This document shows positions 26,967 through 42,729 of a DNA stretch of 64,000 bases, one piece after another; within the stretch, counting starts at the first letter, position 1; every line of letters begins with the position of its first letter. The position numbers and the translations under genes were made by a program. The stretch is taken from the NCBI RefSeq assembly GCF_001315015.1, contig NZ_CP012914.1, forward strand, positions 496,001 through 560,000, given 5' to 3'. Below the pieces are notes generated by a model. It saw only the letters and a list, made by a program, of their open reading frames with translations, searched no databases and had not been told where the DNA came from. The DNA is from Azospirillum brasilense (lineage in GTDB: Bacteria > Pseudomonadota > Alphaproteobacteria > Azospirillales > Azospirillaceae).

Positions 26967-28133
26967 TCAGAAAAGTTCGATGTCGCCGCCGGAACTGTCG
27001 GCTTGGCCGGCATCGACGTCAAGGACGCCATGCTCGTCCAGCGCCGTCCCTTCCAGCAGCAGACGGCGCACGAAACGCTGGCGCATCTCGCTCAGCTTGA
27101 AACGGCCCAGCAGCTCGTCGAGCCATTCCTGCGGAACCTGCGGTCCCAAGGAAGCGGGCATTTCGACGCGGGTGCGGTTTTCCAGCTCGTTCAGGCCTTC
27201 CGCCATGATGGCGAGGCTGTCGTTGATGGCCTCCAGCCGCTGCTTGGTCAGGTCCTGGAACTGCATCCCGGTGACCATGCGGCTGATGGTGGCGGACATG
27301 TCCGACGACACGTTCGCCGCCGTCTCCAGCACCGCCTGGAAGTGGTTGGTCTGGTCGACCAGGCTGTCCATGGTCTTGTCCACCCGCTCCTTGGCGAGCA
27401 TCTGGGGGGACATGTCGGTGTCGGCGATCTGGCGCAGGATGTCGTGGCCGTTGCGCACGCCCTTGACCACCGCGGTGACCTTGGAGCGCATGCGGTCGGC
27501 CAGGGCCCCGGTGGAGCGGGAGAGGTGGCGCACCTCCTGGGCGACCACCGCGAAGGTGCGGCCGGCCTCGCCGGCGCGGCTCGCCTCGATGGTGGCGTTC
27601 AGCGCCAGGAAGTTGGTCTGGCGGTTGATGGCGTCGATGTCGCCAATCGACTTCTCCAGCTCCGCCACGTCCTTCTGCACGTCGTCGAGCAGATAGACCA
27701 TGCTCATGGCGTGGCGCGACAGCAGGACGATGTTGGAGATCATGTCCGCGATCATCTGCTGCATGCCGGTGACGAGCTGGTCCATCGGCACCCGCTCCCC
27801 ATCGATGGAGACGGAGCCGGCCATGCCGACGATCTGCTCCACCCGCTCCGACTGCTGCATGGCCTTCTCGGCCAGCTCGCGGAAGCGGTGGGAAAGATCC
27901 AGCGTGGCGTCCTCGACCGTCGAGGAGGTGCGGGTCAGCTCGTTCTGCACCGCCTCCAGCGTGCGGCGCTGAATGTCGGCGTAGCCCATCCAGGTCGCCA
28001 GAAGCTCGCCGGTCACCGGAATCTTCTCGCCGATCTTGGGCAGGCTGTGCACGGGAGCGCCATCGTCGGGAAGGCCCGGCTTCTCCGGTTCCGGTCCGGC
28101 TTCCAGGCGGGGCGCGCGGCCGTAGAAAGACAT
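26967..28133 (-). CDS. soluble methyl-accepting chemotaxis protein
   Basis: A 388-residue chemoreceptor-like protein without transmembrane helices. The signalling hairpin is visible as '[45 protein letters not shown]' (read as separate parts at about 150-195), which contains the CheA/CheW-binding tip. The N-terminal 100 residues lack a recognisable sensor domain. A C-terminal extension (about 320-388) ends in 'GGDIELF', a motif also found near the end of CheD in this operon. It lies 11 bases after cheB and is the last gene of the chemotaxis operon. A cytoplasmic array or adaptation role is likely. Confidence 0.88.
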
Positions 28134-28144
28134 GGTGCTGCTCC

Positions 28145-29209
28145 TCAGTTCGCGCGCGTGCGGTGTTCGCCGATGGCGTCGAACGCGCGCAGCATCTCGG
28201 CCGGTATCTGCGCCAGCGGCAGTTCGACGGCCACCGCCCCGGCTTCCCGGGCGGCGCGCGGCATGCCGTAGACGACGCAGCTCGATTCCTGTTCGCCGAT
28301 GGTATAGGCCCCCGCGTCGTGCATCGCCAGCATGCCCGACGCCCCATCGCGGCCCATGCCGGACAGGATCACCCCCACCGCGTTCGCCCCCGCCGCCTTG
28401 GCGACGGAGGAGAACAGCACGTCCACCGACGGGCGGTGGCCGCTGACCGCCGGCCCGTCCTGGATGTGGCAGGAATAGCCCTGGGCGTCGCGGATCACCA
28501 CCAGATGACGGTCGCCGGGGGCGATGTAGACCTTGCCCTGGACCAGCGGGGCGCCCTGGGTGGCGACCTCCACCGACGGCGGCGAGATGCGGTCGAGCCG
28601 GGCGGCGAAGCTGGGGACGTAGCTGGGACCCATGTGCTGGGTGATGACGATGGGCGGGCAGTCGGCGGGCATGACCGCCAGCACGTCGCGGATGCGCTCC
28701 ACCCCGCCGGTCGAGGCGCCGATGGCGATGAGGCGGGTGCCCGACCCGGCGCGGCGCGGCGTCTGGAGGGGTGAGGTCGCGGGCTTGGGCCGCCGCATCG
28801 ACAGGCGGGCGGTGGCGGCGATGCGGATCTTGCCGACCAGCTCATGGGCCATCGCCTCGAAGCCGTGCCCCTCCGAGCCGTCGGGCTTGGCCACGCAGTC
28901 CACCGCGCCGATCTCCAGCGCGCGGATCGTCGCCTCCGACCCCTCCTGGGTCAGGGAGGAGACCATGACGACCGGCGTCGGGCGCAGCGTCATGATCTTT
29001 TCCAGGAAGGACAGCCCGTCCATCCGCGGCATCTCGACGTCCAGCGTGACGACGTCCGGGTTGGTCCGCTTCATGACGTCGCGCGCCTCGTAGGGATCGC
29101 GGGCGACGCCGACCACCTCGATGCCGGGCTCCTCGGAGATGATGGCCTTCAGCATCTCCCGCATCAGGCTGCTGTCGTCCACGATCACGACGCGGATGGA
29201 GCGTGTCAT
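28145..29209 (-). CDS. cheB: chemotaxis protein-glutamate methylesterase/deamidase CheB
   Basis: A 354-residue CheB that removes methyl groups from chemoreceptors and deamidates glutamines. The receiver domain (1-120) has '[14 protein letters not shown]' and phospho-Asp57 ('[13 protein letters not shown]'). The esterase domain has the catalytic triad: Ser166 in '[12 protein letters not shown]', His192 in '[10 protein letters not shown]' and Asp in '[11 protein letters not shown]'. The gene is three bases from cheD and 11 from the soluble MCP. It is phosphorylated by CheA in adaptation. Confidence 0.96.
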
Positions 29210-29212
29210 GGC

Positions 29213-29839
29213 TCAGTCCTCCCCGAACAGTTCCACGTCGCCCTCGATCGGCTGGTGCCGCAGGCTGGAGCGGAAATGCAGTTCTTGGTTCGCCGTCTCC
29301 GACAGGGCCTCGGGCCGCAGCATCTTGCGCATGGCCTTGCCGGTGTGGGGAAAATAGTGGATGCGCCGGGCCGAGGCGCCGCCGAGATCCTGGCCCATCA
29401 GCTTCAGCCCCTCCCGCCGCACGTAGTCGAGCGCAAAGGCGGCGTTGCGCTGGCCGACGTCGAAGCTGGAATCGATGACGCGGGCGCCGCCGAACAGCTT
29501 GACCTCCAGCCGTCCACGCTGGGCGCCGCGCGCCAGCAGGTCGTTGATCAGCCGCTCCATGGCGACCGAGCCGTAGCGCGCCGCCGCCCCGGTGCCGGCG
29601 TCCTCGGACTCCGGCACCTCTGGCAGCAGGAAATGGTTCATGCCGCCGATCGCCGTCGCCGGATCGTGGACGCAGGCGGCCACGCAGGAGCCCAGCGTCG
29701 TCACCATCATCACGTCCGAGCGGTCGCTGACCAGATGATGGCCGAGGAAGACCTTCATCGTGTGGGCGCGGAACTGCGGGTGGAAGTAGCCGCCGGTCTG
29801 CCGGGCCTCCGCCGCGCGGCGGCTTGCGAATGCGGTCAT
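29213..29839 (-). CDS. cheD: chemoreceptor glutamine deamidase CheD
   Basis: A 208-residue CheD, which converts receptor glutamines to glutamates. The catalytic Cys and His are in 'VTTLGSCVAACVHDP' and 'GGMNHFLLPE'; 'GGARVIDSSFDVGQRNAAFALDYV' covers the conserved Thr/Ser and Asn region (read in parts). About 30 residues at the N-terminus precede the core, and the C-terminus carries 'EGDVELFGED', nearly the same as the end of the soluble MCP. It is packed three bases from both cheR and cheB. Confidence 0.94.
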   Translation of the reverse strand: MTAFASRRAAEARQTGGYFHPQFRAHTMKVFLGHHLVSDRSDVMMVTTLGSCVAACVHDPATAIGGMNHFLLPEVPESEDAGTGAAARYGSVAMERLINDLLARGAQRGRLEVKLFGGARVIDSSFDVGQRNAAFALDYVRREGLKLMGQDLGGASARRIHYFPHTGKAMRKMLRPEALSETANQELHFRSSLRHQPIEGDVELFGED

Positions 29840-29842
29840 GCG

Positions 29843-30763
29843 TCACAGCCTCCGGTAGATGGTGGGGCCGGTCTGGCGGAAGCGGTCCGACACGCCGTAC
29901 AGGCTTTCCGAATGGCCGAGGAACAGATAACCGCCGGGCTCCAGCATGCGGGCGAAGTTGCCGATGACCTGGGTTCGCCCGACGCGGTCGAAATAGATCA
30001 GCACGTTGCGGCAGAAGATCGCGTCGAACGGCCCCTTCATGGGCCAACGCTCCAGCAGGTTCAGCGGCTTGAAGGTGATCAGCCGCTTCAGCTCCTCCTC
30101 CATCGCCACCATCGGCTCGCCGCCCTCGCGCTGGCGCCGGGTGAAGCGGTCGCGCAGGGGGGCCGGGATGCTGTTCGCCAGATCGGCGGGATAGACGCCG
30201 CACCGGGCGGTGTCGACCATATGGGTGTCGATGTCGGTCGCCAGGATCTTCGCGTCCCAGCGCCGCAGCTCCGGCCCGAAGCTGGAGGCCAGAACCATGG
30301 CGATGGTGTAGGGCTCCTGCCCGGAGGAGCAGCCGGCGGACCAGATGCGCAGCCGCGGGTGGGAGGATTCCCCGGTGTGGCGGGCGCGCATCTCCGGCAC
30401 CGCGGTCTTCGCCAGGAAGTCGAAATGGTGCGATTCGCGGAAGAAGCTGGTCAGGTTGGTGGTCAGGGCGTTGACCAGGAAGCCGACCTCGTTCGCTCCC
30501 TCCTCGCTCTCCAGCAGGGCGCAGTAAGTGTCGAAGTCGCTCAGGCGCAGGTCGCGCAGCCGCCGGGCGAGGCGGGAATAGACCATCTCGATCTTGTGCG
30601 GGGCCAGCGCGATCCCGGCGAGCTGGTAGAGCATGTGGGCGATGAAGTCGAAGTGCCGCCGCTCGAACGGGAACTCCCGCCGTCCCGACGTCGCCGCGGG
30701 GACGGCGCCGCGGTCGGTCGGGGCCGAGTCGGGGGCGGGGGAAGGGCTGGGGACGGTGGTCAT
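29843..30763 (-). CDS. cheR: chemotaxis protein methyltransferase CheR
   Basis: A 306-residue S-adenosylmethionine-dependent methyltransferase that methylates receptor glutamates. The N-terminal helical domain (about 30-95) is followed by the SAM-binding core '[20 protein letters not shown]', '[20 protein letters not shown]', '[14 protein letters not shown]' and '[13 protein letters not shown]'. The first 30 residues are Pro/Ser-rich and disordered. Its ATG overlaps the stop of the upstream MCP gene (ATGA at 30760-30763), so receptor and methyltransferase are co-translated. Confidence 0.95.
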
Positions 30764-33330
30764 GCCGCCCGTCCGCGGGACAGCTCGGACCCGCCGTGGG
30801 CGTGGCCGGCGTCCAGCGAGAAGAAGGCCATCTGCTGGCGCAACTGCCCGGCCTGCTCCTCCAGCGAGCGGGCGGCGGCGGTGCTCTCCTCGACCAGCGC
30901 GGCGTTCTTCTGGGTCATCTCGTCCATCTGGGCGACGGCGGTGTTGACCTCGTCCAGGCCGGACGCCTGCTCGGCGGTGGCGCGGGCGATCTCCGACACG
31001 AGGTCGGCGACCCGCGCGATGCCCGCCACGATGTCGGTCAGCGAGGAGCCGGCGGAGCGGACCAGCTCAACCCCGTCCTTGACCTGCGCCCCGCTGTCGA
31101 GGATCAGCGTCTTGATCTCCTTGGACGCCTGGGCGGAGCGCTGGGCGAGGTTGCGCACCTCCTGGGCCACCACGGCGAAGCCGCGCCCGGCGTCGCCGGC
31201 CCGCGCCGCCTCCACCGCCGCGTTCAGCGCCAGCAGGTTGGTCTGGAAGGCGATCTCGTCGATCACCCCGATGATGTCGGAAATCTTCTGCGACGAGCGC
31301 TCGATCCCACGCATCGCCTCCACGGCGCTGGCGGCGACCTGACCGCCCCTCTCGGCGGCGCGCCGGGCGTCGTTGGCGAAGGCGTTTACCTGCTGGGCGT
31401 TGTCGGCGTTGGAGCGGACGGTGGCCGCCAGCTCCTCCATGCTCGCCGCCGTCTCCTCCAGCGAGGAGGCCTGCTGCTCGGTGCGCTCGGACAGGTCGAG
31501 GCTGCCGTCGGCGATCTCGCGGCTGGCCGCGGCGATGGATTCGGCGGCGCCGTTGATTCGGCGGACGATCTCCGACAGCTTCTCCGCCGTGCCGTTGAAG
31601 TCGTCCTTCAGGCGCAGGAACACGCCCTCGTACGGCTTGTCGATGCGCCGCGACAGGTCGCCCTGGGACAGCGACTCCAGCATGGCGGCGAGATCCTCGG
31701 TCACGCCGGAGACGTTGCCGGCCAGCCGGTTCATGCCCTCGCTGACCAGCCGGAAGAAGCCGGACTTGCCGTCGAGCGCGATCCGCTGGGAGAAGTCGCC
31801 GCGCACGGCGCTGTCGACCATGCCGGCGATCTCCGCCTCGATGGACAGCTCGGCGGTGAGGTCGCGCCATTCGACGACGAGGCCCAGCTTCTCGCCATGG
31901 CGCCCGGCGACCGGGCTGGCGGTGATTTCGAAGCTGCGGCGGCCCGTCTTGACCATGCCCTTGTAAGGGCTGGCGAGGCCGCTCAGGCTGGAGCGCAGGC
32001 GCGGGGCCTCGGTGTCCAGCGCGTCGAGGGTCTGTCCAATCAGCCCGGCGGCGTCGAAAGCGGGCAGGGCTTGGCGCAGGTCGCTCTCGGCGGCCTTGAA
32101 CATCGCCAGGGCGGCGGCGTTGCAATAGGTGACGGTCCCGTCCTCGCCCACCGTCATGATGCAGGACGACACGCGGTCGAGCGCGATCCCGGCCCGCACG
32201 GCGGTCACCGCGTCCTCCTTGAAGGCGGCAACGGCGCGGGCCATCGCGCCCAGCTCGTCGCGCCCGTCCGTGTGGGGGACGGTGACCGACAGATGGCCGT
32301 CGCTGAGGTCGGTCATCACCTTGCGGATGCCCTGGACCGGGCCGGTGATCGAACGGGCGATGACCTGGGCGGCGCCGATGCCCAGCAGCAGCGACAGGCC
32401 GCCCAGCAGCAGGGCCAGCAGGACGCTGTTCTCCACCTCCGCCTCGGCGCGGGTCTCGATTCCCTTCTGCTCGGCCTGGATGGCGATGGCGATGGAGTCG
32501 ATCGTCGCGGTCAGGGCGGTGACGATCTTGGCGACGATCTCGGCGCGCAGGCGGTCGATCTCCTTGTCGGCGGCGACGGCGTCGCGGAAGGCGGCGCGGT
32601 AGCCCGGCGCCCGTTCCGCCACCTCGCGCAGCAGCGCCGCCACGCGGGGTTCGGTCAGCAGGGCCTGCGCCTCGCGCACATGCTCCAGCATCTCGTCCAG
32701 GTTCTTTTCCATCGGCGCCGCGGCGGCGGCGTCGCGCATGCCGAGCGCGCGGTTGGCGAAGAGACGGCTCAGCACCCAGTGCTTCTCCATCTCCTCCCCG
32801 ACCAGGGCGGCGTCCTTGTCGCCGGTGGCCTGGGCGCCCTCGACGACGCGCTCCAGCGTCTCGGTGATCTGGGTGCCCAGCGGGTCCATCGTCTGGCGGA
32901 TGGCCGCGTCGTAGCGGTCGCGGACGACGCGGATCGTCTCGAACTGGGTATGGTACTCGCTGTGCAGCCGCGCCAGCTCGGCGAAGGCCGCCGCCTGGCT
33001 GGAGCGCTGAATGGCGCCCTCGTGGGCGGCGAGCGCCTGATCGAACTCGGTGCGCAGCGCCCGCTGGCGGTTGAGCGCGGCGGGGTCGCCGGAGACCAGA
33101 TAGTCGCGCCCGTGGATGCGCTGGTTGGCGAGGCGGGCCGAGAGGTCCTTGGCGAAGGTGGCGAGTTCACCGCCGGTGAGCACCGCGTCGACGCTGCCGT
33201 TCAGGCTGCGGATGCTCAGCAGGCTGGCGGCGACCTGGGCGGCCAGCAGGGCGAGCAGGAGCGCGAAGGCCAGCCACAGCCGCTTCGAGATGCCCATCGA
33301 CCCAACGAACGAACCGACCCCTTTCGCCAT
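30760..33330 (-). CDS. transmembrane methyl-accepting chemotaxis protein
   Basis: An 856-residue chemoreceptor. TM1 (about 17-38) and TM2 (about 302-324) flank a long helical periplasmic sensor of about 260 residues, the size of a helical bimodular (HBM)-type ligand domain. A HAMP domain ('[15 protein letters not shown]'), a PAS domain (about 390-500, '[22 protein letters not shown]'), a second HAMP-like segment and the signalling domain with tip '[48 protein letters not shown]' (quoted in parts) follow. The C-terminus is a short variable tail without a CheR-tethering pentapeptide. It is encoded between cheW and cheR. Ligand unknown. Confidence 0.9.
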
Positions 33331-33452
33331 GCCATCCCCCTTGCCCGCCGCGTCACGTCGGCGTTAGCCCTTATTTGAAACCAACCCGTGTGAAAAGCCG
33401 CGACATGACGCACCCCGTCGGCGCCTGTGTGGGCACCAACGTGGGGCGCTGT

Positions 33453-34010
33453 TCAGGACGCCCGCTCCAGCGCCGGCAGGGCCTTGGTCGCCGAGTCCAG
33501 CTCGCTGTTCTCGACCGAGAACAGCTTCTCGACGCAGAGCAGCGTGACCATGCGGTCGTCGGCGGTGTAGAGGCCGCTGAGATACTCGGCGTCGACCATG
33601 CCGCCGTCCACGTCGGGCGGCGGCTTGATGGCGTCGTGGCCGATCGCCAGGATGTCGGAGATGGCGTCCACCAGGATGCCGCGGGTGCGTTCCCCCACCT
33701 GGATCACCACCACGACGTGGCGCTTGGTGACCGACGTGGCGCCGCCGCCGAAGCGGGCGCGCAGGTCGAAGATGGGGATGATGATGCCGCGCAGGTTGAT
33801 GACGCCGCGCACGTAGTCCGGCAGGTTCGGCAGGCGGCTTTCCGGCGTCCAGCCGCGGATCTCGCGGACCGACAGGATGTTGACGCCGTACTCCTCGCTG
33901 CCGACGGTGAAGGTGACGTACTGCTCCTCGGCGGCGTTGACCGCCATGACGTCGTTTCGGGCGTCGGTGCGGCTACCGCCGACGGTGGCGAGCGCGGTGG
34001 AACTGCTCAT
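33453..34010 (-). CDS. cheW: chemotaxis adaptor CheW
   Basis: A 185-residue CheW adaptor that joins receptors to CheA. The core (about 25-165) shows 'QYVTFTVGSEEYGVNILSVREI' (in parts), 'RGVINLRGIIIPIFDLRARFG' and 'GILVDAISDILAI', the usual CheW pattern. The Shine-Dalgarno sequence TGAGGCC for the ATG at 34010 overlaps the cheA stop codon, 10 bases upstream, so the two are coupled. A gap of 122 bases to the MCP is the largest in the operon and could hold a secondary promoter. Confidence 0.94.
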   Translation of the reverse strand: MSSSTALATVGGSRTDARNDVMAVNAAEEQYVTFTVGSEEYGVNILSVREIRGWTPESRLPNLPDYVRGVINLRGIIIPIFDLRARFGGGATSVTKRHVVVVIQVGERTRGILVDAISDILAIGHDAIKPPPDVDGGMVDAEYLSGLYTADDRMVTLLCVEKLFSVENSELDSATKALPALERAS

Positions 34011-34020
34011 CGCTGTGGCC

Positions 34021-36267
34021 TCAGACCGGTTCGAGTGCGGGTGCGGGCAGCGCGGCCACCGGCGAAGACGGCGGACGCGGCGCCCTGGAATCCATGTGCC
34101 GGCTCATCTCGCGCAGGCCCGCGACGTCCAGGATCAGGGCGACGCGCCCGTCGCCCAGGATGGTCGCGGCGGCCACGCCGTCGAGGCGGCGGAAGTTCGC
34201 TTCCAGGCTCTTGATGACGACCTGCTGCTGGCCCAGCACCTCGTCCACGACGAGGCCGAGGCGGGAGCCGTCCTCTGTCTCCACCAGCACGACCAGCGCG
34301 CGGGTGGGGTCGGCGACGGCGCCGGGGATGCCGAACAGCTGGTGCAGGTAGACCAGCCGCACATACTCGCCGCGGGCCATCATCACGTCGCACTTGCCGA
34401 CCAGCCCGTGCAGGTCCGCCGCCTTGGGGCGCAGGCTCTCCACGATGTTGGTCAGCGGCAGGACGAAGCGCTCCTCGCCGACCGAGATCACCATGCCGTC
34501 GAGCACCGCCAGGGTCAGCGGCAGCGACAGCACGAAGCGCGAGCCCTCGCCCGGCGTGGAATAGACGCCGATGCGCCCGCCGAGCGAGGAGATGTTCCGC
34601 CGCACCACGTCCATGCCGACGCCGCGTCCCGACAGGTTGGACACCTGATCGGCGGTGGAAAAGCCGGGCAGGAAGATCAGGTTGTCAATCTCCTCGTCCG
34701 ACAGGGTGGCGCCCGGCTGGACGAGCCCCTTCTCGATGGCCTTGGACAGCACCTTGGGCCGGTTGATGCCGCGCCCGTCGTCGGTGATCTCGATGACGAT
34801 GCGGCCCGAGCGGTGCTGCGCCGACAGGTGTACGGTGCCGGCGCGCGGCTTGCCGACGCGCTCCCGTTCCTCCGGCCCTTCCAGCCCGTGGTCGATGGAG
34901 TTGCGGATCATGTGGGTCAGCGGATCGACGAGGTTCTCCACCACCGTCTTGTCCACCTCGGTCGTCTCGCCGCTGGTGACGAGCTGGACCTCCTTGCCCG
35001 TGGTGGCGGCGCACTCGCGGACCAGCCGCGGCATGCGGGAGAAGACGCTCGACACCGGCTGGGCGCGGATCGACATCACGCTCTCGCGCAGCTCGCGGGT
35101 GTGCTGGGCCAGCTGCTCCAGCCCTTCCAGAAGCTCCTGGAACTCGCCGGGGGGCAGCTCGCGCACATGCTCGGCGATCATCGCCTGGGTGATGACCATC
35201 TCGCCGACCATGTTGACCAGCCGGTCGATCTTGTCGAGATCGACGCGGATGGTGTGGCTGGTCAGCCCGGCATGCTCCGCACCGCCGCCGTTGGGGCGCG
35301 GGCGGGCGGTTTCGGCTTTCGGGGCGTCGGCCCCAGGCGTTTTGGGGAGTGGCTCGGGGACCGTGGCGACCACCGCCGGCGGAGCGGCGACGGGCACCGG
35401 ATCGGTGACGGGCGGCGGAGCCTCTGGGGCGGCGGGCGGCGGGGCCTCGGCGGTGATGCGGATGTCGCAGTCGTCGGCCACGAACTCGAAGACGTCGTTG
35501 ATCTTGTCCAGATCGACATCCGCGTCGGCGAGCAGCGTGACCGTCCAGGAGAGGTGGAGAAGCTCCGCCTCCAGGTTCTGGAGGTTGGGCAGGGCGTCGG
35601 TGTGGCATTCGACGGTGGCGTCGCCCAGCCGGCGCAGCGCGCGCAGCATGAAGGCCGGTTCGTTGCCCGACATCAGCAGGTCGGACCGCGGCCGGAAGAC
35701 GATGGTCCAGCGCAGCTTGCCGGGAGGAACCGGGTCCTCTTCCGCGCGGGCGGCAGCGATGGCCGCCATGGCGTCGCCGAACAGCCCGGCCTCGTCGTCC
35801 TCGTCGTCGGCGTAGATGGGGGCCGGTGCCGGTACGGCGGCCGCGGCCGCCGGAGCCTGGACCTGCGGAGCCCCACCCGACAGGTGGCGGCGCAGGGCGG
35901 CCACGGTGCCGTCGGTGGTCCCCGCCGGGGCGGGGTCGCCCTCGCGCGCGTAGGCCAGCATCTGGCCCAGCAGGTCGTTGGCGCGGATCAGTGTGTCCAC
36001 CAGCTCCGTCGTGACAGGGACGGTGTTGTTGCGCACCCCGTCCATGACCGTCTCGAACTCGTGCGCGAAGGCGACCAGCTCGGTGAAGCCGAAGGCGCCG
36101 CCGCCGCCCTTGATGGAATGGACGGCGCGGAAGATGGCGTTGACTTCGTCGGAATCGACCTCGCCCGGCGTCAGCCGCAGCAGGCCGGACTCGGCGACCT
36201 CCAGCAGCTCCGCGCTTTCGTCGAAATAGGTTTGCTTGAACCGGCTCAGGTCTTCCACGGGCGCCAC
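34021..36267 (-). CDS. cheA: chemotaxis histidine kinase CheA
   Basis: A 748-residue CheA. P1 HPt with phosphoacceptor His50 ('FRAVHSIKGGGGAFG'); a P2-like ferredoxin-fold region (about 170-285, 'LRWTIVFRPRSDLLMSG'); a Pro/Ala linker; P3 dimerisation ('IRVDLDKIDRLVNMVGEMVI', 'THMIRNSIDHGLEGPEERE'); P4 kinase ('IEITDDGRGINRPKV', 'LPGFSTADQVSNLSGRGVGMDVV' in parts); and P5 CheW-like domain. The start is GTG at 36267, 21 bases after cheY; no ATG near it fits the family N-terminus. It phosphorylates CheY and CheB of the same operon. Confidence 0.95.
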   Translation of the reverse strand: MAPVEDLSRFKQTYFDESAELLEVAESGLLRLTPGEVDSDEVNAIFRAVHSIKGGGGAFGFTELVAFAHEFETVMDGVRNNTVPVTTELVDTLIRANDLLGQMLAYAREGDPAPAGTTDGTVAALRRHLSGGAPQVQAPAAAAAVPAPAPIYADDEDDEAGLFGDAMAAIAAARAEEDPVPPGKLRWTIVFRPRSDLLMSGNEPAFMLRALRRLGDATVECHTDALPNLQNLEAELLHLSWTVTLLADADVDLDKINDVFEFVADDCDIRITAEAPPPAAPEAPPPVTDPVPVAAPPAVVATVPEPLPKTPGADAPKAETARPRPNGGGAEHAGLTSHTIRVDLDKIDRLVNMVGEMVITQAMIAEHVRELPPGEFQELLEGLEQLAQHTRELRESVMSIRAQPVSSVFSRMPRLVRECAATTGKEVQLVTSGETTEVDKTVVENLVDPLTHMIRNSIDHGLEGPEERERVGKPRAGTVHLSAQHRSGRIVIEITDDGRGINRPKVLSKAIEKGLVQPGATLSDEEIDNLIFLPGFSTADQVSNLSGRGVGMDVVRRNISSLGGRIGVYSTPGEGSRFVLSLPLTLAVLDGMVISVGEERFVLPLTNIVESLRPKAADLHGLVGKCDVMMARGEYVRLVYLHQLFGIPGAVADPTRALVVLVETEDGSRLGLVVDEVLGQQQVVIKSLEANFRRLDGVAAATILGDGRVALILDVAGLREMSRHMDSRAPRPPSSPVAALPAPALEPV

Positions 36268-36288
36268 CTCACAAGCCAGGACGCGGCG

Positions 36289-36654
36289 TCAGCCGCACAC
36301 CTTCTGCACGACGGAGATCAGCTTCTCCGGGTTGAAGGGCTTCACGATCCAGCCGGTCGCCCCCACCGCCCGGCCTTCGGACTTCTTCTTCTCGTCGGCC
36401 TCGGTGGTCAGCATCAGGATGGGGAGCGTGCGGTGCGCCGGGGTGGCGCGCAGGCGGCGGATCAGGGTCAGCCCGTCCATCACCGGCATGTTCAGGTCGG
36501 TGATGACGAGGTCCACCTTGTTGGCGCCGATGACGCCCAGCGCCTGCTGGCCGTCGGCGGCCTCGACCACGTCGTAGCCGGCGCCCTTCAGCGTGAAGGA
36601 GACCATGTCCCGCATGGTCCGCGAATCGTCGACGGTGAGTACCTTCTTCTTCAC
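36289..36654 (-). CDS. cheY: chemotaxis response regulator CheY
   Basis: A 121-residue single-domain receiver, the diffusible motor signal. Motifs: 'KVLTVDDSRTMRDM', phospho-Asp in 'VDLVITDLNMPVMDG', Thr in 'LMLTTEAD' and Lys in 'WIVKPFNPEKL'. I chose the GTG at 36654 because it overlaps the upstream STAS stop (GTGA), is preceded by GGAG at ideal spacing and gives the usual CheY N-terminus; an ATG at 36666 in the STAS gene would add four residues. It lies between STAS and cheA. Confidence 0.93.
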   Translation of the reverse strand: MKKKVLTVDDSRTMRDMVSFTLKGAGYDVVEAADGQQALGVIGANKVDLVITDLNMPVMDGLTLIRRLRATPAHRTLPILMLTTEADEKKKSEGRAVGATGWIVKPFNPEKLISVVQKVCG

Positions 36655-36962
36655 GCTTGGCTCCATTGCTTCAACCAGCCGTCCAGTCCCAAATCCTCGC
36701 AGGCTTCCGCCAGGACCTCGGACGGCTGGGCGATGGCGAACGTACGGTTCTGTTCGGCGGCGTGCCGGGAGGCGACCAGAAGCGCCTGGACGCAGGCGGT
36801 GCTGACCCGCTCCACGGCCGCGGCCTCGGCGATGACGGCTTGGGACGCGGCGAAGCCGGCGCGCAGGCTGTCCAGCAGGGGCTGCGCCATGGCGAGGTCG
36901 AGGTCGCTGGGCAGGCCCAGCCGCACCGTTCCCCCCTCGTCGCTCCACTTGATCAAAGTCAC
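36651..36962 (-). CDS. STAS-domain protein at the head of the chemotaxis operon
   Basis: A 103-residue STAS-like protein: 'TVRLGLPSDLDLAMAQPLLDSLRAGF', then 'VERVSTACVQALLVASRHAAE' (in parts), where Ser replaces the phosphorylatable position as 'VSTACVQAL'. STAS genes of this type open several alphaproteobacterial che operons but their job is unclear. The start is the GTG at 36962, eight bases after AAGGAG; an open frame extends further upstream without a ribosome site. Its stop overlaps the cheY start. Confidence 0.75.
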   Translation of the reverse strand: MTLIKWSDEGGTVRLGLPSDLDLAMAQPLLDSLRAGFAASQAVIAEAAAVERVSTACVQALLVASRHAAEQNRTFAIAQPSEVLAEACEDLGLDGWLKQWSQA

Positions 36963-37052
36963 CGCCCGTCTCCTTGCAACCCGACCGGGCAATGCCCCGT
37001 CCGGAAGACTGATCATGTCCGGCATTTGGTAAAAAACCTGCCTGAAACACGT

Positions 37053-37067
37053 ATAAGGATTCGTTAA
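37053..37067 (-). promoter_or_regulatory. CtrA-box-like sequence upstream of the chemotaxis operon
   Basis: On the - strand TTAA-N7-TTAT (37067 to 37053) matches seven of eight conserved bases of the CtrA consensus TTAA-N7-TTAA. It lies about 90 bases upstream of the first che-operon gene. CtrA controls motility and chemotaxis genes in several Rhodospirillales. A single near-match can occur by chance. Confidence 0.35.
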
Positions 37068-37087
37068 GGCAACTGGACTGACCTGTG

Positions 37088-39877
37088 TCAACCGGAGCGC
37101 GTTCCGGCGGTGTGGTCCGGTTCTTTCGCGGTTTGATCGTTTTGTGACATGGCTGTTGCCATTGTCGCCAAAGGAACGGTGAAGGCGAAGGTGGCGCCCT
37201 TGCCGGGGGCGCTGGCCACCCAGATGCGGCCGCCGAGATGCTCGACGATGCGCTTGCTGATGGCCAGCCCCAGCCCGGTGCCCTGCGGCTTGTCGGTCAT
37301 GGTGTCGCCGACCTGCCGGAAGCGGTCGAAGACGATGGCCTGATGCTCCGCGGCGATGCCCGGGCCGCTGTCGGTGACGGACACGCGTAGGGCGTCGCCC
37401 TCCGCCGCGACGGACAGCGAGGCCCGGCCGCCCGCCGGGGTGAATTTCGCGGCGTTGGACAGCAGATTCACCGCCACCTGCACCAGCCGGTCGTGGTCGC
37501 CGCGCACCGGCGGCAGGCCGTGCGGGATGGTGACGGCCAGCGCGATGCCGCGCTCATGGAACAGCCGGGCGGTGGCCGCCGCCGCCTGCTCCAACGCGGC
37601 GCCGAGGTCCATCGGGCGGACCTGCCAATCGATCTCCCCCGCCTCGATCTTCGCCATGTCGAGGACTTGGTTGATGAGGCGGGTCAGCCGCTCGCTCTCG
37701 GTGATGACGAGGCCGAGAAACTCCTGCCGCTGCTCAAGCTCGATGTCGGGGTTGTCGTGCAGCACCTCGGTCAGGGCGCGGATGGAGGTCAGCGGCGTGC
37801 GCAGCTCGTGCGTCACGGTGGACAGGAACTCGTCCTTCAGCCGGTCCAGCTCCGTCAGCCGTTCGTTGGCGGCGCGCAGCGCGGCCGACGCGCGCTGCAG
37901 CTCTGCCGTCTTGTGTTCGAGCTGGCGGCTGTACTCGATGACGTGGCTGGTCTCGTCGAGCATCCGCATCAGCTCGGGGTAGCTGACCTCGCCGCCCTCG
38001 ACCGCGGAGGCCAGCGCCACCCGCGCGGAGGCGGCGCCGATCGCCCCGGCGAGCAGCCGCTCGGCGAAGCGCACCAGCTCCGCCCCGGCCCGGCGGTCCG
38101 GCTCCAGCGGCCCGTTGCGGCGGACGTATTGGGCGAAGGCGGCCTCCGCCCGCTGCGGACCGAGGAAGCGCGCGACGATGCGCTGCAGGTCGCCGACCGT
38201 GGCGGTGCCGCGCCACGCGCCCGCGGGCAGGGGAGTGTCGCGGTGCTGGAACACCTCGACGAAGGCGGTGGCCTGCGCCCGCTCGCCCAAGCCGGGGTGG
38301 TCGAGCAGGGAGACCACGACGTAGAGGCCGATGTTGAGCAGCATGCTCCAGAACAGCGCGTGGGTCAGCGGGTCCATGCCGTCCAGCCCGAACAGGGCGT
38401 AGGGCCGCAGCAGGGCGACGCCCCACGGCCCCTGGTCGATGAAGGAGGCGGGCAGCCAGCCCGACCGCGCAAAGCTGGGCAGCAGCAGCGTGTAGGCCCA
38501 GGTCAGGATGCCGGTGCCGAGGCCAGCCAGCGCGCCGCGCCGGGTCGCCCCCGCCCAATAGACGCCGCCGATCAGCGCCGGGGCGAACTGCGCCACCGCC
38601 GTGAAGGAGATCAGGCCGATGGCGCTCAGCGCGTAGGCCGAGCCGGCGATGCGGAAATACAGGTAGCCGAGCAGCAGGATCGCCACGATGGCGGCGCGCC
38701 GGATGGTCAGCAACAGCGGCGACAGGTCGTGCAGCCGCTCCAGCCGGGCGCTGCGGGCGCGCAGCAGGAGCGGCATCACGATGTCGTTGCACACCATGGT
38801 GGACAGCGCGATGGCCTCGACCACGATCATGCCGGTGGCCGCCGACAGCCCGCCGATGAAGGCCAGCAGGGCCAGCCACTCGTTCCCGGCGGCCAGCGGC
38901 AGTGCCACCACGAACATGTCCGGGTCGACCGCCCGGTCGGGGAAGCGCATCAGCCCGGCCACCGCCACCGGCAGGACGAACAGGTTGATCAGCAGCATGT
39001 AGAGCGGGAAGAGCCAAAGGGCGCGGGTCAGGTGCCGCTCGTCCACATTCTCGATCACCGTCACCTGGAACTGGCGGGGCAGGCACAGCACCGCCGCCAT
39101 CGACAGCAGCGTCATGGTCAGCCACGAGCCGTCGGCCAGCGCCGGGGCGGAGGTGAAGAGGTCGCGGATCTCCGGATGCTCGGCGGCCGTGGCGAACAGT
39201 TCGGTCGGGCCGTCGTGCAGGCTCCAGACCACCGCCGCGCCGACCGCCAGGAAGGCCACCAGCTTGACCACGGATTCGAAGGCGATGGCCGCCACCATGC
39301 CCTCGTGATGCTCCGCCGCGTCGATGTGGCGCGTGCCGAAGATGATGGCGAAGGCCGCCATGACGACCGCCACGTAGAAGGCGTTGTCCAGCACGACGGG
39401 CAGGGACAGGCCGCCGGTGGCGCCGGACGGGTCGGTGCCCCACAGCACGTCGAAGCTGACCGCCACGGCCTTGAGCTGCAGGGCGATGTAGGGCGTCACC
39501 CCGATCACCGCGGTCAGCGCCACCAGCCCGCCCAGCCCCTGGCTGCGCCCGTAGCGGGAGGCGATGAAGTCGGCGATGGAGGTGATGCGCTGCGCCTTGG
39601 CGATGCGCAGGATCTTGCGCAGCACCAGCGGCCCCAGCAGCATCAGCAGGGTCGGGCCGAGATAGATCGGCAGGAAGCCGATGCCCAGAGACGCCGCCCG
39701 CCCCACCGAGCCGTAGAAAGTCCAGGTGGTGCAGTACACCGCTAGCGAGAGCGCGTACACGTACGGCGACGCGATGACGCTGCGCCCGCCGTCCGCCCGC
39801 CGGTCCGCCCACCAGGCGATGGCGAAGAGGAGGAGCAGGTAGGCGAAGCTGGCGGCGACGATGGTGGGCCAGGGCAT
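37088..39877 (-). CDS. sodium:solute symporter-type sensor histidine kinase (SLC5-STAC-HK)
   Basis: A 929-residue fusion. Residues about 1-520 form a 12-13 helix SLC5/PutP-like transporter domain ('YALSLAVYCTTWTFYGSVGRAASLG', 'RITSIADFIASRYG'). A STAC domain ('VGDLQRIVARFLGPQRAEAAFAQYV', about 555-625), a coiled coil, HisKA ('FLSTVTHELRTPLTSIR', His690) and HATPase ('GTGLGLAISKRIV') follow. It resembles CrbS/CbrA-type kinases that sense or transport a nutrient, but lacks the PAS and receiver domains of CrbS. It is the last gene of a four-gene operon, starting two bases after a small membrane protein. The stand-alone receiver at 42729 is the likely phosphoryl acceptor. Confidence 0.92.
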   Translation of the reverse strand: MPWPTIVAASFAYLLLLFAIAWWADRRADGGRSVIASPYVYALSLAVYCTTWTFYGSVGRAASLGIGFLPIYLGPTLLMLLGPLVLRKILRIAKAQRITSIADFIASRYGRSQGLGGLVALTAVIGVTPYIALQLKAVAVSFDVLWGTDPSGATGGLSLPVVLDNAFYVAVVMAAFAIIFGTRHIDAAEHHEGMVAAIAFESVVKLVAFLAVGAAVVWSLHDGPTELFATAAEHPEIRDLFTSAPALADGSWLTMTLLSMAAVLCLPRQFQVTVIENVDERHLTRALWLFPLYMLLINLFVLPVAVAGLMRFPDRAVDPDMFVVALPLAAGNEWLALLAFIGGLSAATGMIVVEAIALSTMVCNDIVMPLLLRARSARLERLHDLSPLLLTIRRAAIVAILLLGYLYFRIAGSAYALSAIGLISFTAVAQFAPALIGGVYWAGATRRGALAGLGTGILTWAYTLLLPSFARSGWLPASFIDQGPWGVALLRPYALFGLDGMDPLTHALFWSMLLNIGLYVVVSLLDHPGLGERAQATAFVEVFQHRDTPLPAGAWRGTATVGDLQRIVARFLGPQRAEAAFAQYVRRNGPLEPDRRAGAELVRFAERLLAGAIGAASARVALASAVEGGEVSYPELMRMLDETSHVIEYSRQLEHKTAELQRASAALRAANERLTELDRLKDEFLSTVTHELRTPLTSIRALTEVLHDNPDIELEQRQEFLGLVITESERLTRLINQVLDMAKIEAGEIDWQVRPMDLGAALEQAAAATARLFHERGIALAVTIPHGLPPVRGDHDRLVQVAVNLLSNAAKFTPAGGRASLSVAAEGDALRVSVTDSGPGIAAEHQAIVFDRFRQVGDTMTDKPQGTGLGLAISKRIVEHLGGRIWVASAPGKGATFAFTVPLATMATAMSQNDQTAKEPDHTAGTRSG

Positions 39878-39878
39878 G

Positions 39879-40112
39879 TCAGCGCCCCCTGCGTTCCAGA
39901 AGCACCGCCGACAGCGCGATCACCCCGGCCCACACCCCCAGGGCGTACACGTACAGCAGGGGCAGGCCGAACAGCGTGTCGCCGGCGCCGAAGACGCGCA
40001 GCAGCGGCGGGTTGAAGGCGACCACGCCGAACAGGAACAGCGCGATCAGGCGGTCGGCGCCCGCCTGGCGCGGTGGAGGCGTTGCGGGTTGCGGGGCGGG
40101 CCCCCCGGTCAA
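39879..40112 (-). CDS. small two-helix membrane protein coupled to the SLC5 kinase
   Basis: A 77-residue protein with a Pro/Gln-rich N-terminus and two hydrophobic helices ('LIALFLFGVVAFNPPLLRVF' and 'LPLLYVYALGVWAGVIALSAVL'), ending 'LLERRGR'. The only sensible start is TTG at 40112, which overlaps the upstream exonuclease stop (TTGA). Its stop ends one base before the SLC5-kinase ATG. Small two-helix proteins commonly accompany SLC5 symporters as accessory subunits, so it probably assembles with the transporter domain of the kinase. I do not recognise a named family with certainty. Confidence 0.65.
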   Translation of the reverse strand: MTGGPAPQPATPPPRQAGADRLIALFLFGVVAFNPPLLRVFGAGDTLFGLPLLYVYALGVWAGVIALSAVLLERRGR

Positions 40113-42316
40113 AAGGCGCGCTCCCGTGCCGCCAGCTCGACGATGATGTTGGCGCCGCGGATGGCGTCGTCGAGCGTGCGGACGTCGCGTTCCTTGAGCA
40201 TCTCGACCATGCGCAGGAAGACCGCGGCGGTGACGAGGCTGTCGCCCAGCGCCGTGTGGCGGTCCACCACCTCGATCCCCAGCCGCTCGGCGATGCCGTC
40301 CAGCGTGTGGTCGCCGCCCTCGCCGAGCAGCATCCGCGACAGCAGCATGGTGTCGAGAACCGGGCTGTCGAACCGCACGCCCGAGACCCGTTCCTTCATC
40401 TTCAGGAATTTCAGGTCGAAGGCAGCGTTGTGGGCGATCAGCACCGCGCCCGACACGAAGCCGCGGAACTGCGGCAGCACCTTGTCGATGGTCGGCTTGT
40501 CGGTGACCATGGCGTCGGTGATGCCGTGGAAGGGGATCGATTCCGCCGGGATGCTCCGCTTCGGGTTGACCAGCGTGTTGAAGGTCTCGCCGGTCAGGAT
40601 GCGCCCGCCGACGACGCGCACGGCGGCGATCTGGATGATCTCGTCGCCGGTGCTGGGCGACAGGCCCGTCGTCTCGGTGTCGAAGACCACGTAATGGAGC
40701 TGGTCGAGCGGCGTGCGGCCAAGCTCGCTGGTGGCCAGCGGCTGGTGCAGCAGGTTGAAGTCGAAGAATTCCGGCCGCGCCCCGCCGCGCGCCGCGGTGT
40801 GGGCCGACGGCGGCTTCAGCGCGGGCGGCAGCGGCACGCGCAGGCGCGACAGCAGCTCGCCCTCCGATCCCGGTCCCTTCACCGGCTCGCTCCACATCGT
40901 GCTCTTGTGGTGCTGGAGCACGTCGCCGACCGTCAGGCCGCCCAGCGCGTCGGGCAGCGGGTGGTCGAGCCAGCTGTCCACGATGCCGCTGGGCACCGAC
41001 GGGCCGCGCCAGGTGATGTCCAGATAGACCCAGCGGTCCCCCGGCTCCGCCGACAGGTCGTAGGCGGGAACCCCGGTCAGCGCGTAGACATACTCGATCA
41101 GGTAGCCGAACAGGATGACGAGGCTGTAGCTGTCACCGTGCACCCACTGCGGCAGCCCGGTCAGCGTCACGCCGTATTGCGCCTCCGGCCCCACGCGGTG
41201 GCGGATCAGGTTGATGAGGTTGGTGGAGTGGATGTCGCTCATCGGCCAGGAGCCGGTGACGACGCTGCGGTACGCGTTGGTGACGCGGGCCAGCCGCTCC
41301 GACAGGGTGTTGGACGAGTCCATCAGCGCGGCCTGGAAGGCGGCGCGCTCCTCCGGCCCCAGCTCCGGCGTGTCGTCCAGCGTCTCCAGCACGGCGCGCA
41401 GGTTGGCGATGGGGGCGCAGAAGCCCTCCGTCGCCTCGCGCAGCAGGGCGTCGCGCTGGCCGAGCGCGGCCAGCTCGCTGGTCGCGTCGGACAAGGTGAT
41501 GACGTAACCGGTGATGGTTGGCGGTTCGTCCGTGCCCTCCGGCGGCTCCTGCAGGATGGCGCTCATCCGCCCGGCCAGCAGGATGTGCCCGTCGGTGGTG
41601 GCGCCGACGAACTGGGCGGTGGTGCCATGCTCGTGGTTGACGTGCCGACCCTCGCGCACGCGGAGCGTCAGCCGCTCCAGCGTGTGGATCACCGGCTCCG
41701 CCACCACGAAATGCAGCAGCGAGCGGCCCAGCCCGAGGTCGCCGGCCAGATGCAGGATGTCGAGCGCCGTCTGGTTGTAGAGAAGGATCTGGTGCTTCAG
41801 GTTGCAGACCAGGACGCCTTCGTGCAGGTCGCGCAGGACGGCGGCCAGCCGGGTCTTCTGCTCCTCCGCCTTGGCGGTCGACTCCGCGACGGTGCGGGCG
41901 GTGTCGCGGCGGGCGGCGGCCAGCTTGTCCGACAGCTCGTTGACCGCCTTGGCCACCGGGGCAAGGTCGCCGTAGCGGGCCAGCGGGATGCGCGCGCCGG
42001 TCTTGCCGTCCGCCGCGCCATGGGCGATCAGCCCGGCCTCGCGGCTCAGCGTTTCAGAGGCGCGCAGCAGACGCCGGTCGACCAGCCCCCACAGGCCCCA
42101 GACCGCGGCGGTGACGGCGGCGGTCATGGTGACGGCGTAGGTGACGAAGGCGTTGGGGTCGTTGTCCGCGCTGAAGCCGACCGCGGCCCCCACCGACAGC
42201 AGGGGCAGGCCGACGCCGGCGGCGCGGAAGGCGAGGGGGATGATCCGGCGCGGTTCCGCCGGGGTGGTTGCCGGAGCGGCGGCTCCGGCACTTCCGGTGG
42301 TCGCCGGCGCGCTCAT
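40109..42316 (-). CDS. degenerate sensor kinase fused to a DnaQ-type 3'-5' exonuclease
   Basis: A 735-residue protein. Two membrane helices (about 30-75), a HAMP-like helix pair (about 80-140), a coiled coil and a PAS-like domain (about 155-285) lead to a HisKA/HATPase-like region (about 290-510) that has lost the phosphoacceptor His ('REATEGFCAPIANLRAVLE') and the ATP-binding N and G boxes, though the terminal 'VGDVLQHHKSTMWSEP' still resembles a kinase end. The last 190 residues are a DEDDh exonuclease with all catalytic residues: Asp546/Glu548 ('FDTETTGLSP'), Asp634 ('AHNAAFD'), His687 and Asp692 ('RHTALGDS'). It overlaps both neighbours by four bases. Confidence 0.88.
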   Translation of the reverse strand: MSAPATTGSAGAAAPATTPAEPRRIIPLAFRAAGVGLPLLSVGAAVGFSADNDPNAFVTYAVTMTAAVTAAVWGLWGLVDRRLLRASETLSREAGLIAHGAADGKTGARIPLARYGDLAPVAKAVNELSDKLAAARRDTARTVAESTAKAEEQKTRLAAVLRDLHEGVLVCNLKHQILLYNQTALDILHLAGDLGLGRSLLHFVVAEPVIHTLERLTLRVREGRHVNHEHGTTAQFVGATTDGHILLAGRMSAILQEPPEGTDEPPTITGYVITLSDATSELAALGQRDALLREATEGFCAPIANLRAVLETLDDTPELGPEERAAFQAALMDSSNTLSERLARVTNAYRSVVTGSWPMSDIHSTNLINLIRHRVGPEAQYGVTLTGLPQWVHGDSYSLVILFGYLIEYVYALTGVPAYDLSAEPGDRWVYLDITWRGPSVPSGIVDSWLDHPLPDALGGLTVGDVLQHHKSTMWSEPVKGPGSEGELLSRLRVPLPPALKPPSAHTAARGGARPEFFDFNLLHQPLATSELGRTPLDQLHYVVFDTETTGLSPSTGDEIIQIAAVRVVGGRILTGETFNTLVNPKRSIPAESIPFHGITDAMVTDKPTIDKVLPQFRGFVSGAVLIAHNAAFDLKFLKMKERVSGVRFDSPVLDTMLLSRMLLGEGGDHTLDGIAERLGIEVVDRHTALGDSLVTAAVFLRMVEMLKERDVRTLDDAIRGANIIVELAARERAF

Positions 42317-42729
42317 GGCTGAGGCTCCGCGGTTCCACCCTGGGTGCCGCCCTGGTTGCTTTCGGGGTTCAGATACTTGCGGACGGTGGTGACGAGGTCG
42401 CGGGTCGAGAAGGGTTTGGTGATGTAGTCGGTGGCACCCAGCGCCATGCCCTTCTGCCGCTCCACGTCGCGGCTCTTGGCCGTCAGCATGATGATGGGCA
42501 GCGACTGGTAGGCAGGGTTGGCGCGCAGCGACTGGCAGACGTCGAACCCGTCGCGGCGCGGCATCATGGCGTCCAGCAGGATCAGGTCGGGCGTGCTTTC
42601 CGCAACCGATTCAAGGGCTTCCTCGCCATTGCGGGCGATGCGCACGGCAAAGCCCGCCTTCTGCAAGAGGACCTGCAGGGAGAGGACGATGCTGGGCTCA
42701 TCGTCGGCGACCAGGATCGTCGGCTTCAT
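42313..42729 (-). CDS. stand-alone response regulator receiver protein
   Basis: A 138-residue receiver protein without output domain: 'TILVADDEPSIVLSLQVLL', phospho-Asp in 'DLILLDAMMPRRDG', Thr in 'IIMLTAKSRD' and Lys in 'YITKPFSTRDL'. A Gln/Gly-rich tail of about 15 residues follows. It is the first gene of the operon and its stop overlaps the pseudokinase-exonuclease start (ATGA, 42313-42316). It may accept phosphate from the SLC5 kinase at the operon's end and act through protein contacts, perhaps with the exonuclease. Confidence 0.9.
   Translation of the reverse strand: MKPTILVADDEPSIVLSLQVLLQKAGFAVRIARNGEEALESVAESTPDLILLDAMMPRRDGFDVCQSLRANPAYQSLPIIMLTAKSRDVERQKGMALGATDYITKPFSTRDLVTTVRKYLNPESNQGGTQGGTAEPQP

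Follow-up and report, generated by a model that had tools for sequence, protein, structure and literature searches.

An SLC5-type histidine kinase operon of Azospirillum brasilense with a pseudokinase-exonuclease fusion: a candidate two-component system with a nuclease output

The operon and its products

The window analysed here is a stretch of 64,000 nucleotides (G000:C1:496001-560000) from the 6.59-Mb genome of the soil bacterium Azospirillum brasilense. Its minus strand carries four genes encoding, in this order, a single-domain receiver (REC), a membrane protein in which a PAS domain and a degenerate histidine kinase core are joined to a DEDDh exonuclease (hereafter, the fusion), a two-helix small protein and an SLC5-type histidine kinase. 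The genes are connected by ATGA, by TTGA and then by a one-base gap. This four-gene operon had been proposed in an earlier note made from the DNA alone, and the open reading frame (ORF) calls on the minus strand bear it out, with its coordinates and joints. We discuss it below as a candidate two-component system whose output would be a nuclease. Its features are as follows.

42313..42729, minus strand: REC, single-domain receiver, 138 amino acids (aa); Pfam Response_reg E=1.3e-31, phospho-acceptor D53
40109..42316, minus strand: membrane-(HAMP)-PAS-pseudokinase-DEDDh exonuclease fusion, 735 aa; HAMP inferred from position
42062..42244, minus strand: two predicted membrane helices of the fusion, about residues 25-85; model helices 25-49 and 56-100, membrane nature from sequence
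41486..41851, minus strand: PAS domain of the fusion, about residues 156-277; Pfam PAS 156-229 with E=1.5e-4, just under the cut-off, and model secondary structure
40817..41461, minus strand: predicted pseudokinase, degenerate DHp hairpin and CA fold, residues 286-500; E297 at the phospho-His position; AlphaFold, Foldseek
40190..40696, minus strand: DEDDh 3'-5' exonuclease domain, residues 541-709; D546, E548, D634, H687, D692
39879..40112, minus strand: two-helix small membrane protein, 77 aa; TTG start, CbrX-like position
37088..39877, minus strand: SLC5-type histidine kinase, 929 aa; HisKA 681-747 and HATPase_c 793-904 (Pfam)

Of the HAMP and PAS domains read earlier in the fusion, PAS stands, with a Pfam match slightly below the cut-off, while HAMP had no Pfam match. 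Neither HisKA nor HATPase was found in the fusion by Pfam. The AlphaFold model of residues 286-522, built with 30 aligned sequences (mean predicted local distance difference test score, pLDDT, 84.3; predicted template-modelling score, pTM, 0.72), has the order of helices and strands of a core composed of a dimerisation and histidine phosphotransfer (DHp) hairpin and a catalytic and ATP-binding (CA) domain. Nearly all of the 50 Foldseek rows shown for this model are histidine-kinase cores, DivL (4q20) ranking third with E=5.7e-11; the other rows belong to LvrB, a hybrid regulator, and to 4fpp, a phosphotransferase that is presumably ChpT. By AlphaFold and Foldseek, a kinase-like fold does precede residue 510, as the earlier note had supposed. 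As to the full fusion (mean pLDDT 76.8), the pTM of 0.42 means that the domain arrangement in its model is not reliable; by Foldseek, the model aligns with WalK/VicK-type chains over several hundred columns, and its exonuclease part matches PolC/DnaQ chains.

The alignment of fusions comprised 72 rows (71 loci and the window), the near-identical Azospirillum loci L006, L007, L008, L011, L029 and L030 having been left out beforehand. The acceptor column holds Glu in 51 rows, Asp in eight, other residues in 11, a gap in two, and His in none. A His is present within residues 292-302 in 14 of the 72 rows, never in the acceptor column, and a pseudokinase retaining its His is ruled out. The N-box Asn and the G-boxes are unrecognisable by eye; D395 is kept in 71 of the 72 rows. 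The loss of the His and ATP boxes from a HisKA/HATPase-like region, claimed earlier, is in agreement with these results, the fold being a predicted one. Modelling and alignment support the identification of residues 286-500 as a putative histidine-kinase pseudokinase of DHp-CA fold devoid of the phospho-His.

Judging by family and catalytic residues, the C-terminus of the fusion is a DEDDh exonuclease and, as previously noted, a complete one: RNase_T matches residues 543-700 with E=3e-40, all five catalytic residues (D546, E548, D634, H687 and D692) are present, and the nearest solved chain is PDB 2p1j (E=2.6e-37). These five residues are invariant in the 29 rows of alignment A1 and intact in 68 of the 72 fusions, the exceptions being L119, L120, L128 and L131; the degenerate copies rule out that an intact nuclease is always retained. 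The domain shares the RNase_T family and the five residues with DnaQ/PolC-type DEDDh exonucleases but, unlike them, is predicted to be membrane-anchored and is fused to a PAS-pseudokinase. In the genus g225 the catalytic D634 is lost in four of the five genomes (L128, L131, L097 and L099), where the fusion sits apart from the kinase.

The first gene of the operon does encode a receiver, as had been noted, and the protein has no DNA-binding part. The 58 fusion-adjacent RECs of relatives are about 121-140 aa long, and D9, D10, D53, T83 and K105 are kept in 56-59 of 59 rows. The two-helix protein is likewise confirmed, as a 77-aa ORF of a conserved family: a similar small ORF was found at the kinase start in 29 of 30 loci under permissive rules, with CTG starts allowed (L047, counted as lacking it, has a match to the small membrane protein in another search), and R21, P36, L53 and W61 are invariant in 13 rows. 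It has no Pfam family, and a PDB search with its profile gave only chance matches. The 58-aa two-helix peptide CbrX is reported to be encoded by a gene which overlaps cbrA and is translationally coupled to it (PMC6591292); in a cryo-electron microscopy map it packs on the transmembrane helices TM3/TM8 of CbrA, and it was described as dispensable for growth on histidine (PMC13022988). Like the gene of CbrX before that of CbrA, the small helix-hairpin gene here overlaps or abuts the kinase gene, and its product may be called CbrX-like, the agreement being one of position and shape.

In the kinase, Pfam finds HisKA with the phospho-His (H-box THELRTP) and HATPase_c. Its SLC5 part had no Pfam match even at E<=10, and neither had that of the ortholog L168; SSF was matched in the orthologs L173 (4.5e-10, over the cut-off) and L122 (8.2e-5, just under it), and it is only through these orthologs that this part can be assigned to a putative SLC5 (SSF) domain. 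Thus, of the SLC5-STAC histidine kinase named in the earlier note, the SLC5 part and the kinase core stood; STAC was not confirmed, residues 530-652 giving only chance matches in the PDB and no STAC model appearing among the Pfam results. The SLC5 domain is shared with the kinases of CrbS/CrbR (MxtR/ErdR), CbrA/CbrB and RpuS/RpuR; in contrast to CrbS/CrbR, CbrA/CbrB and RpuS/RpuR, the kinase here is not hybrid, REC is single-domain and the operon includes no DNA-binding regulator. The CrbS/RpuS subgroup is described as a hybrid kinase with a C-terminal REC plus a LuxR-type regulator (PMC9100948), and the window kinase, which has no REC of its own and is accompanied by a single-domain one, falls outside it.

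Distribution of the fusion and its neighbours

The survey was confined to Pseudomonadota and covered 82 genomes of the order, a class sample of 289 genomes and a phylum sample of 398. The fusion is kept in close relatives and is not an assembly or frameshift artefact, a possibility raised by the earlier note, because the pseudokinase profile was found in 61 of the 82 genomes of the order, the frames are open, and 45 related loci were aligned as fused proteins. The closest fusion to that of the window is from A. brasilense (L005, 98% identical; 99% when the columns used for the tree are counted). The kinase ortholog, defined by a score over 700 bits (a split gene in G317 was also included, and SLC5 kinases of about 1,170-1,290 aa with lower scores were tallied as paralogs), is present in 59 of the 82 genomes, all of them among the 61 with the fusion. 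None of the 21 genomes without the fusion has the ortholog, and ten have a paralog; in G308 and G340 the fusion is present and the kinase ortholog absent. The fusion gene adjoins the kinase gene in 54 of the 59 genomes. All five g225 genomes have the two separated, by 36 kb on one contig in G336 and on different contigs in four drafts, and in the two of these genomes inspected closely (L128-L131) the kinase adjoins STAS-CheY-CheA-CheW-CheR-CheD. Owing to the shared ancestry within the order, the counts do not represent independent events.

In the phylum sample, the PAS plus pseudokinase profile matched 43 of 398 genomes at 90 bits or more, and 82 at E<=1e-10, the rest being weaker matches and some of them other kinases. 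The exonuclease is carried by all 19 phylum-sample loci that were fetched (that of the window genome excluded); REC is adjacent in 18 of them, although only 35-43% identical in L179, L180 and L187, and the kinase in 14, the stretch of L185 stopping at a contig edge. The gene order varies: REC, fusion, small membrane protein and kinase, or, in L172, L177 and L181, small membrane protein, kinase, REC and fusion. The fusion is found across classes of Pseudomonadota, with a gene set extending well beyond Azospirillum.

In the class sample the pseudokinase profile matched 7 of 289 genomes, and the kinase family, paralogs included, 65 at E<=1e-100. Among the genomes without a pseudokinase match, 14 kinase loci, mostly the best-scoring, were examined; REC is located beside the kinase in all 14 and the small membrane gene in 13. 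Because REC, small membrane protein and kinase recur without the fusion, this trio looks like the core of the system and the fusion like an added output. That the fusion and the SLC5 kinase are inseparable is ruled out by the occurrence of the trio without the fusion and of the fusion without the kinase. G367 (L125, 4375-6510) encodes a deeper paralog, of 711 aa and with an intact exonuclease, and no REC or kinase was present in the 10 kb fetched.

From REC to the exonuclease: a proposed mechanism and its rivals

We propose that the operon encodes a two-component system in which the signal would pass from the SLC5 kinase to REC, from REC to the pseudokinase and from the latter to the exonuclease; on the strength of sequence comparisons, we give this an even chance of being correct. 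Control of a nuclease by a nutrient-sensing kinase by way of a receiver had been suggested in the earlier note, and the comparisons lend it indirect support. The SLC5 kinase, with the helix-hairpin protein as its CbrX-like partner, would sense a nutrient or its flux, as its family suggests. It would autophosphorylate and hand the phosphate to the single-domain REC of the operon, the trio being recurrent. Phosphorylated REC (REC~P) would dock on the DHp hairpin of the pseudokinase, which, lacking the phospho-His, would act as a phospho-REC reader, like DivL with DivK~P. The docking would make the membrane-anchored DEDDh 3'-5' exonuclease at the C-terminus more or less active, and this enzyme would trim RNA or another nucleotide-bearing target, adjusting the use of short-chain carboxylates. 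The latter role is proposed because relatives of the exonuclease often adjoin CBS-DUF294 nucleotidyltransferases and ActP-type carboxylate transporters.

The pseudokinase is likely to have REC as its partner, considering the joint distribution of hairpin and REC, the relatives having neither pseudokinase nor REC, the likeness of the pseudokinase to the kinase, and the conserved residues of REC. Hairpin and REC (a match scoring at least 60 bits in the 1.5 kb upstream) could be tallied in 69 of the 71 loci, two having too little upstream sequence: a full hairpin was accompanied by REC in 58, a short hairpin lacked REC in eight, a full hairpin lacked it in three, and no short hairpin had it. REC is the most constant neighbour of the fusion (18/19, against 14/19 for the kinase) and is retained beside it in L126 and L127 (G308 and G340), though the kinase and the small membrane gene are gone, which supports this view. 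The nine shorter relatives L231-L239, whose loss of the pseudokinase is inferred from their length, have no REC at 75 bits or more; L189 encodes a membrane-PAS-exonuclease protein without the pseudokinase that does not directly follow REC, and the same is true of L191, which matches it over the entire length. In the genome of the window (E<=10, 62 candidates scored) the pseudokinase profile found, besides itself, only the neighbouring SLC5 kinase (1.5e-7), and in 22 chosen genomes (E<=1e-5) orthologs of this kinase made up 11 of the 11 non-fusion matches. A shared REC-binding face, or duplication from the kinase, would explain this likeness. The proposal also agrees with the predicted fold and its lost His, with the conserved catalytic residues, with the co-occurrence of fusion and kinase ortholog in the order (59/59 versus 0/21) and with the exonuclease gene found in an SLC5-kinase regulon of Pseudomonas putida (PMC9927547).

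Several observations weigh against the proposal. A full hairpin occurs without REC directly upstream in L124, L125 and L174 (the REC of L124 is located in a convergent kinase operon). The eight short-hairpin loci form one clade (100/100, the hairpin columns being kept in the tree), so the short-hairpin part of the correlation counts as about one event, and most of the 58 loci with a full hairpin and REC are Azospirillum kin. The SLC5 kinase is not alone in resembling the pseudokinase, because the wider PAS plus pseudokinase profile also matches other kinases of other genomes (1e-10 to 1e-16), and to call the neighbouring kinase the sole lookalike anywhere would be too strong; likeness to the kinase DHp could, moreover, reflect duplication or heterodimerisation. 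Foldseek gave the pseudokinase modest template-modelling scores (0.39-0.52 of the query) and large root-mean-square deviations over the two-domain core, as expected of two hinged domains. Two lineages (L119/L120 and four of the five g225 genomes) have a degenerate exonuclease site, and activity as a nuclease is therefore not retained throughout. Finally, 12 of the 14 kinase loci without the fusion have no exonuclease in the 13 kb fetched, and REC must have other outputs there.

G368 and G376 each possess two copies of the fusion. The kinase-side copies (L119, L120), with a full hairpin and a degenerate exonuclease, adjoin the small membrane and kinase genes, and the second, unlinked copies (L039, L049) have an intact exonuclease and a hairpin that is short or missing. 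REC lies upstream of the L119 copy; L120 starts too near the contig edge to tell. Such a division of roles between two copies suggests that signal reading and nuclease may be separable into two proteins, the position of L119 and L120 in the tree being unsure because of their long branches.

The precedent is DivL, whose DHp-CA part is reported to read DivK~P and is frequently lacking in lineages without DivK (PMC4211667). The protein described here is likewise a PAS-DHp-CA pseudokinase without the phospho-His, its proposed partner is a single-domain REC, and its DHp is shortened or missing where REC is absent. Unlike DivL, it has a fused DEDDh exonuclease as its output and Glu or Asp (59/72) at the His site, where DivL has Tyr; the likeness is one of architecture and predicted fold.

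The main rivals to the reading of REC~P by the pseudokinase are a pairing of the pseudokinase with the kinase and a REC directed at the che genes. In the former case, the similar DHp hairpins of the fusion and of the SLC5 kinase would pair, and the fusion would inhibit or activate the kinase, in a RetS/GacS-like manner, or be recruited. Such pairing would agree with the profile results (the SLC5 kinase alone in its own genome, 11/11 in the chosen ones) and with the co-occurrence of fusion and kinase in the order (59/59 versus 0/21), but it is unlikely in view of the REC kept beside the fusion in L126 and L127 without kinase and small membrane gene, of the greater constancy of REC as a neighbour, and of the separation of kinase and fusion in g225. 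In the latter case, the pseudokinase would serve solely as a linker, structural or dimerising, the exonuclease would be constitutive, and REC~P would have another target, such as the flagellar motor or the che4-like cluster that follows the kinase. This linkage recurs in L129, L130 and L132, and shorter PAS-exonuclease relatives do exist without the pseudokinase; however, the che genes searched for were found in none of the 19 phylum-sample loci (one had a match to a methyl-accepting chemotaxis protein, MCP), many Azospirillum loci have none downstream, and the full hairpin accompanies REC. We consider this explanation improbable as well.

The surroundings of the exonuclease bear on its possible job. 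A CBS-DUF294 nucleotidyltransferase is encoded in the fetched stretch of 24 of the 71 fusion loci, none of them from Azospirillum, and of all 11 shorter relatives examined (L189, L191 and L231-L239; eleven further lower-scoring genomes were left out). An ActP-type symporter was found in 13/71 and 6/11, respectively, in stretches of unequal length. In L170, DUF485, ActP, nucleotidyltransferase, REC, fusion, small membrane protein (a weak match) and SLC5 kinase form one same-strand run. The window genome has two DUF294_C matches, both outside the window, and the nucleotidyltransferase is not beside the exonuclease here; one of the two genes belongs to a DUF485-SSF-cNMP-CBS-DUF294 cluster. In L189 (8702-10183) and L191 the membrane-PAS-exonuclease gene lies beside a divergent CBS-DUF294 nucleotidyltransferase gene and a REC, small membrane protein and kinase trio.

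The earlier remark that DnaQ-like genes occur near acetate-uptake loci holds for these relatives (exonuclease, nucleotidyltransferase and ActP) and for Pseudomonas putida, where MxtR/ErdR, an SLC5-kinase system, is reported to target the operon of pp_0354 (CBS) and pp_0353 (RNase_T), and where growth on pyruvate is impaired by deletion of pp_0353, not of pp_0354 (PMC9927547). In P. fluorescens, a CBS/nucleotidyltransferase protein is under the control of CrbS/CrbR, and its mutant was reported to have no phenotype (PMC5715377). As in these Pseudomonas SLC5 systems, relatives of the operon are linked to acetate/pyruvate, ActP, a CBS-nucleotidyltransferase and an RNase_T exonuclease. The likeness to pp_0354/pp_0353, compared by description only, lies in an exonuclease gene that shares an operon with a CBS-domain gene and is the target of an SLC5-type kinase; in contrast to the operon here, the passages available from that study report no REC or SLC5 kinase in the P. 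putida operon (PMC9927547). Unlike in the SLC5/STAC systems, the exonuclease here is inside the operon and carries a pseudokinase, which suggests post-translational control. Mere co-transcription, in which the exonuclease would be a nutrient-regulon gene standing beside the sensor without direct contact and controlled transcriptionally, as pp_0354/pp_0353 by MxtR/ErdR, fits both the exonuclease-nucleotidyltransferase-ActP association and the P. putida regulon (PMC9927547), but is very unlikely, as the operon REC has no DNA-binding part and a pseudokinase that lacks its His yet persists across classes should have its own function.

The mechanism in which REC~P acts on the pseudokinase can be carried one step further, to an idea that we regard as quite doubtful. 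The DEDDh domain, gated by phospho-REC, might be the "eraser" to the CBS-DUF294 nucleotidyltransferase as a "writer"; a nutrient sensor would then control a cycle of nucleotidylation and de-nucleotidylation of a protein or RNA target, with the dead histidine kinase as a phosphate-reading switch. This logic resembles that of GlnD acting on PII.

The usual outputs of two-component systems are transcription factors, second-messenger enzymes or the flagellar motor. The likely end point here would be a nuclease, to which the signal would pass via a dead kinase conserved across classes of Pseudomonadota. The proposal offers a concrete, testable wiring for the CBS-nucleotidyltransferase/exonuclease pair at acetate and pyruvate loci, and carries the DivL idea of a kinase turned reader over to a metabolic system. 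No published description of the pseudokinase-exonuclease fusion or of its wiring was found in our searches of open-licence literature.

The downstream che cluster and other loci

The kinase gene is followed on the same strand by chemotaxis genes.

36651..37091, minus strand: STAS-domain ORF, overlapping the kinase stop codon; first gene of the che cluster
28145..36660, minus strand: CheY, CheA, CheW, MCP (HAMP-PAS-HAMP), CheR, CheD and CheB (Pfam); che4-like

A second MCP ends the cluster, which spans 26967-37091. The che4 cluster of A. brasilense is reported to include the receptor Tlp4a, with PAS between its first two HAMP domains (PMC6759762), and, by architecture only, the downstream cluster fits a che4-like one. 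The present analysis draws attention to an operon adjoining a che4-like locus, a type of locus that has been studied in Azospirillum.

Two records may bear wrong names: the fusion of L007, titled as a Magnetospirillum metagenome-assembled genome, is 97% identical to that of Azospirillum, and the fusion of L010, titled Roseomonas genomospecies 6, is 93% identical to it. In A. lipoferum (L014, 13546-17443) the genes found 3' of the kinase encode a REC-PAS-HATPase protein, a PAS-HisKA-HATPase protein and another REC, a second possible phosphate branch.

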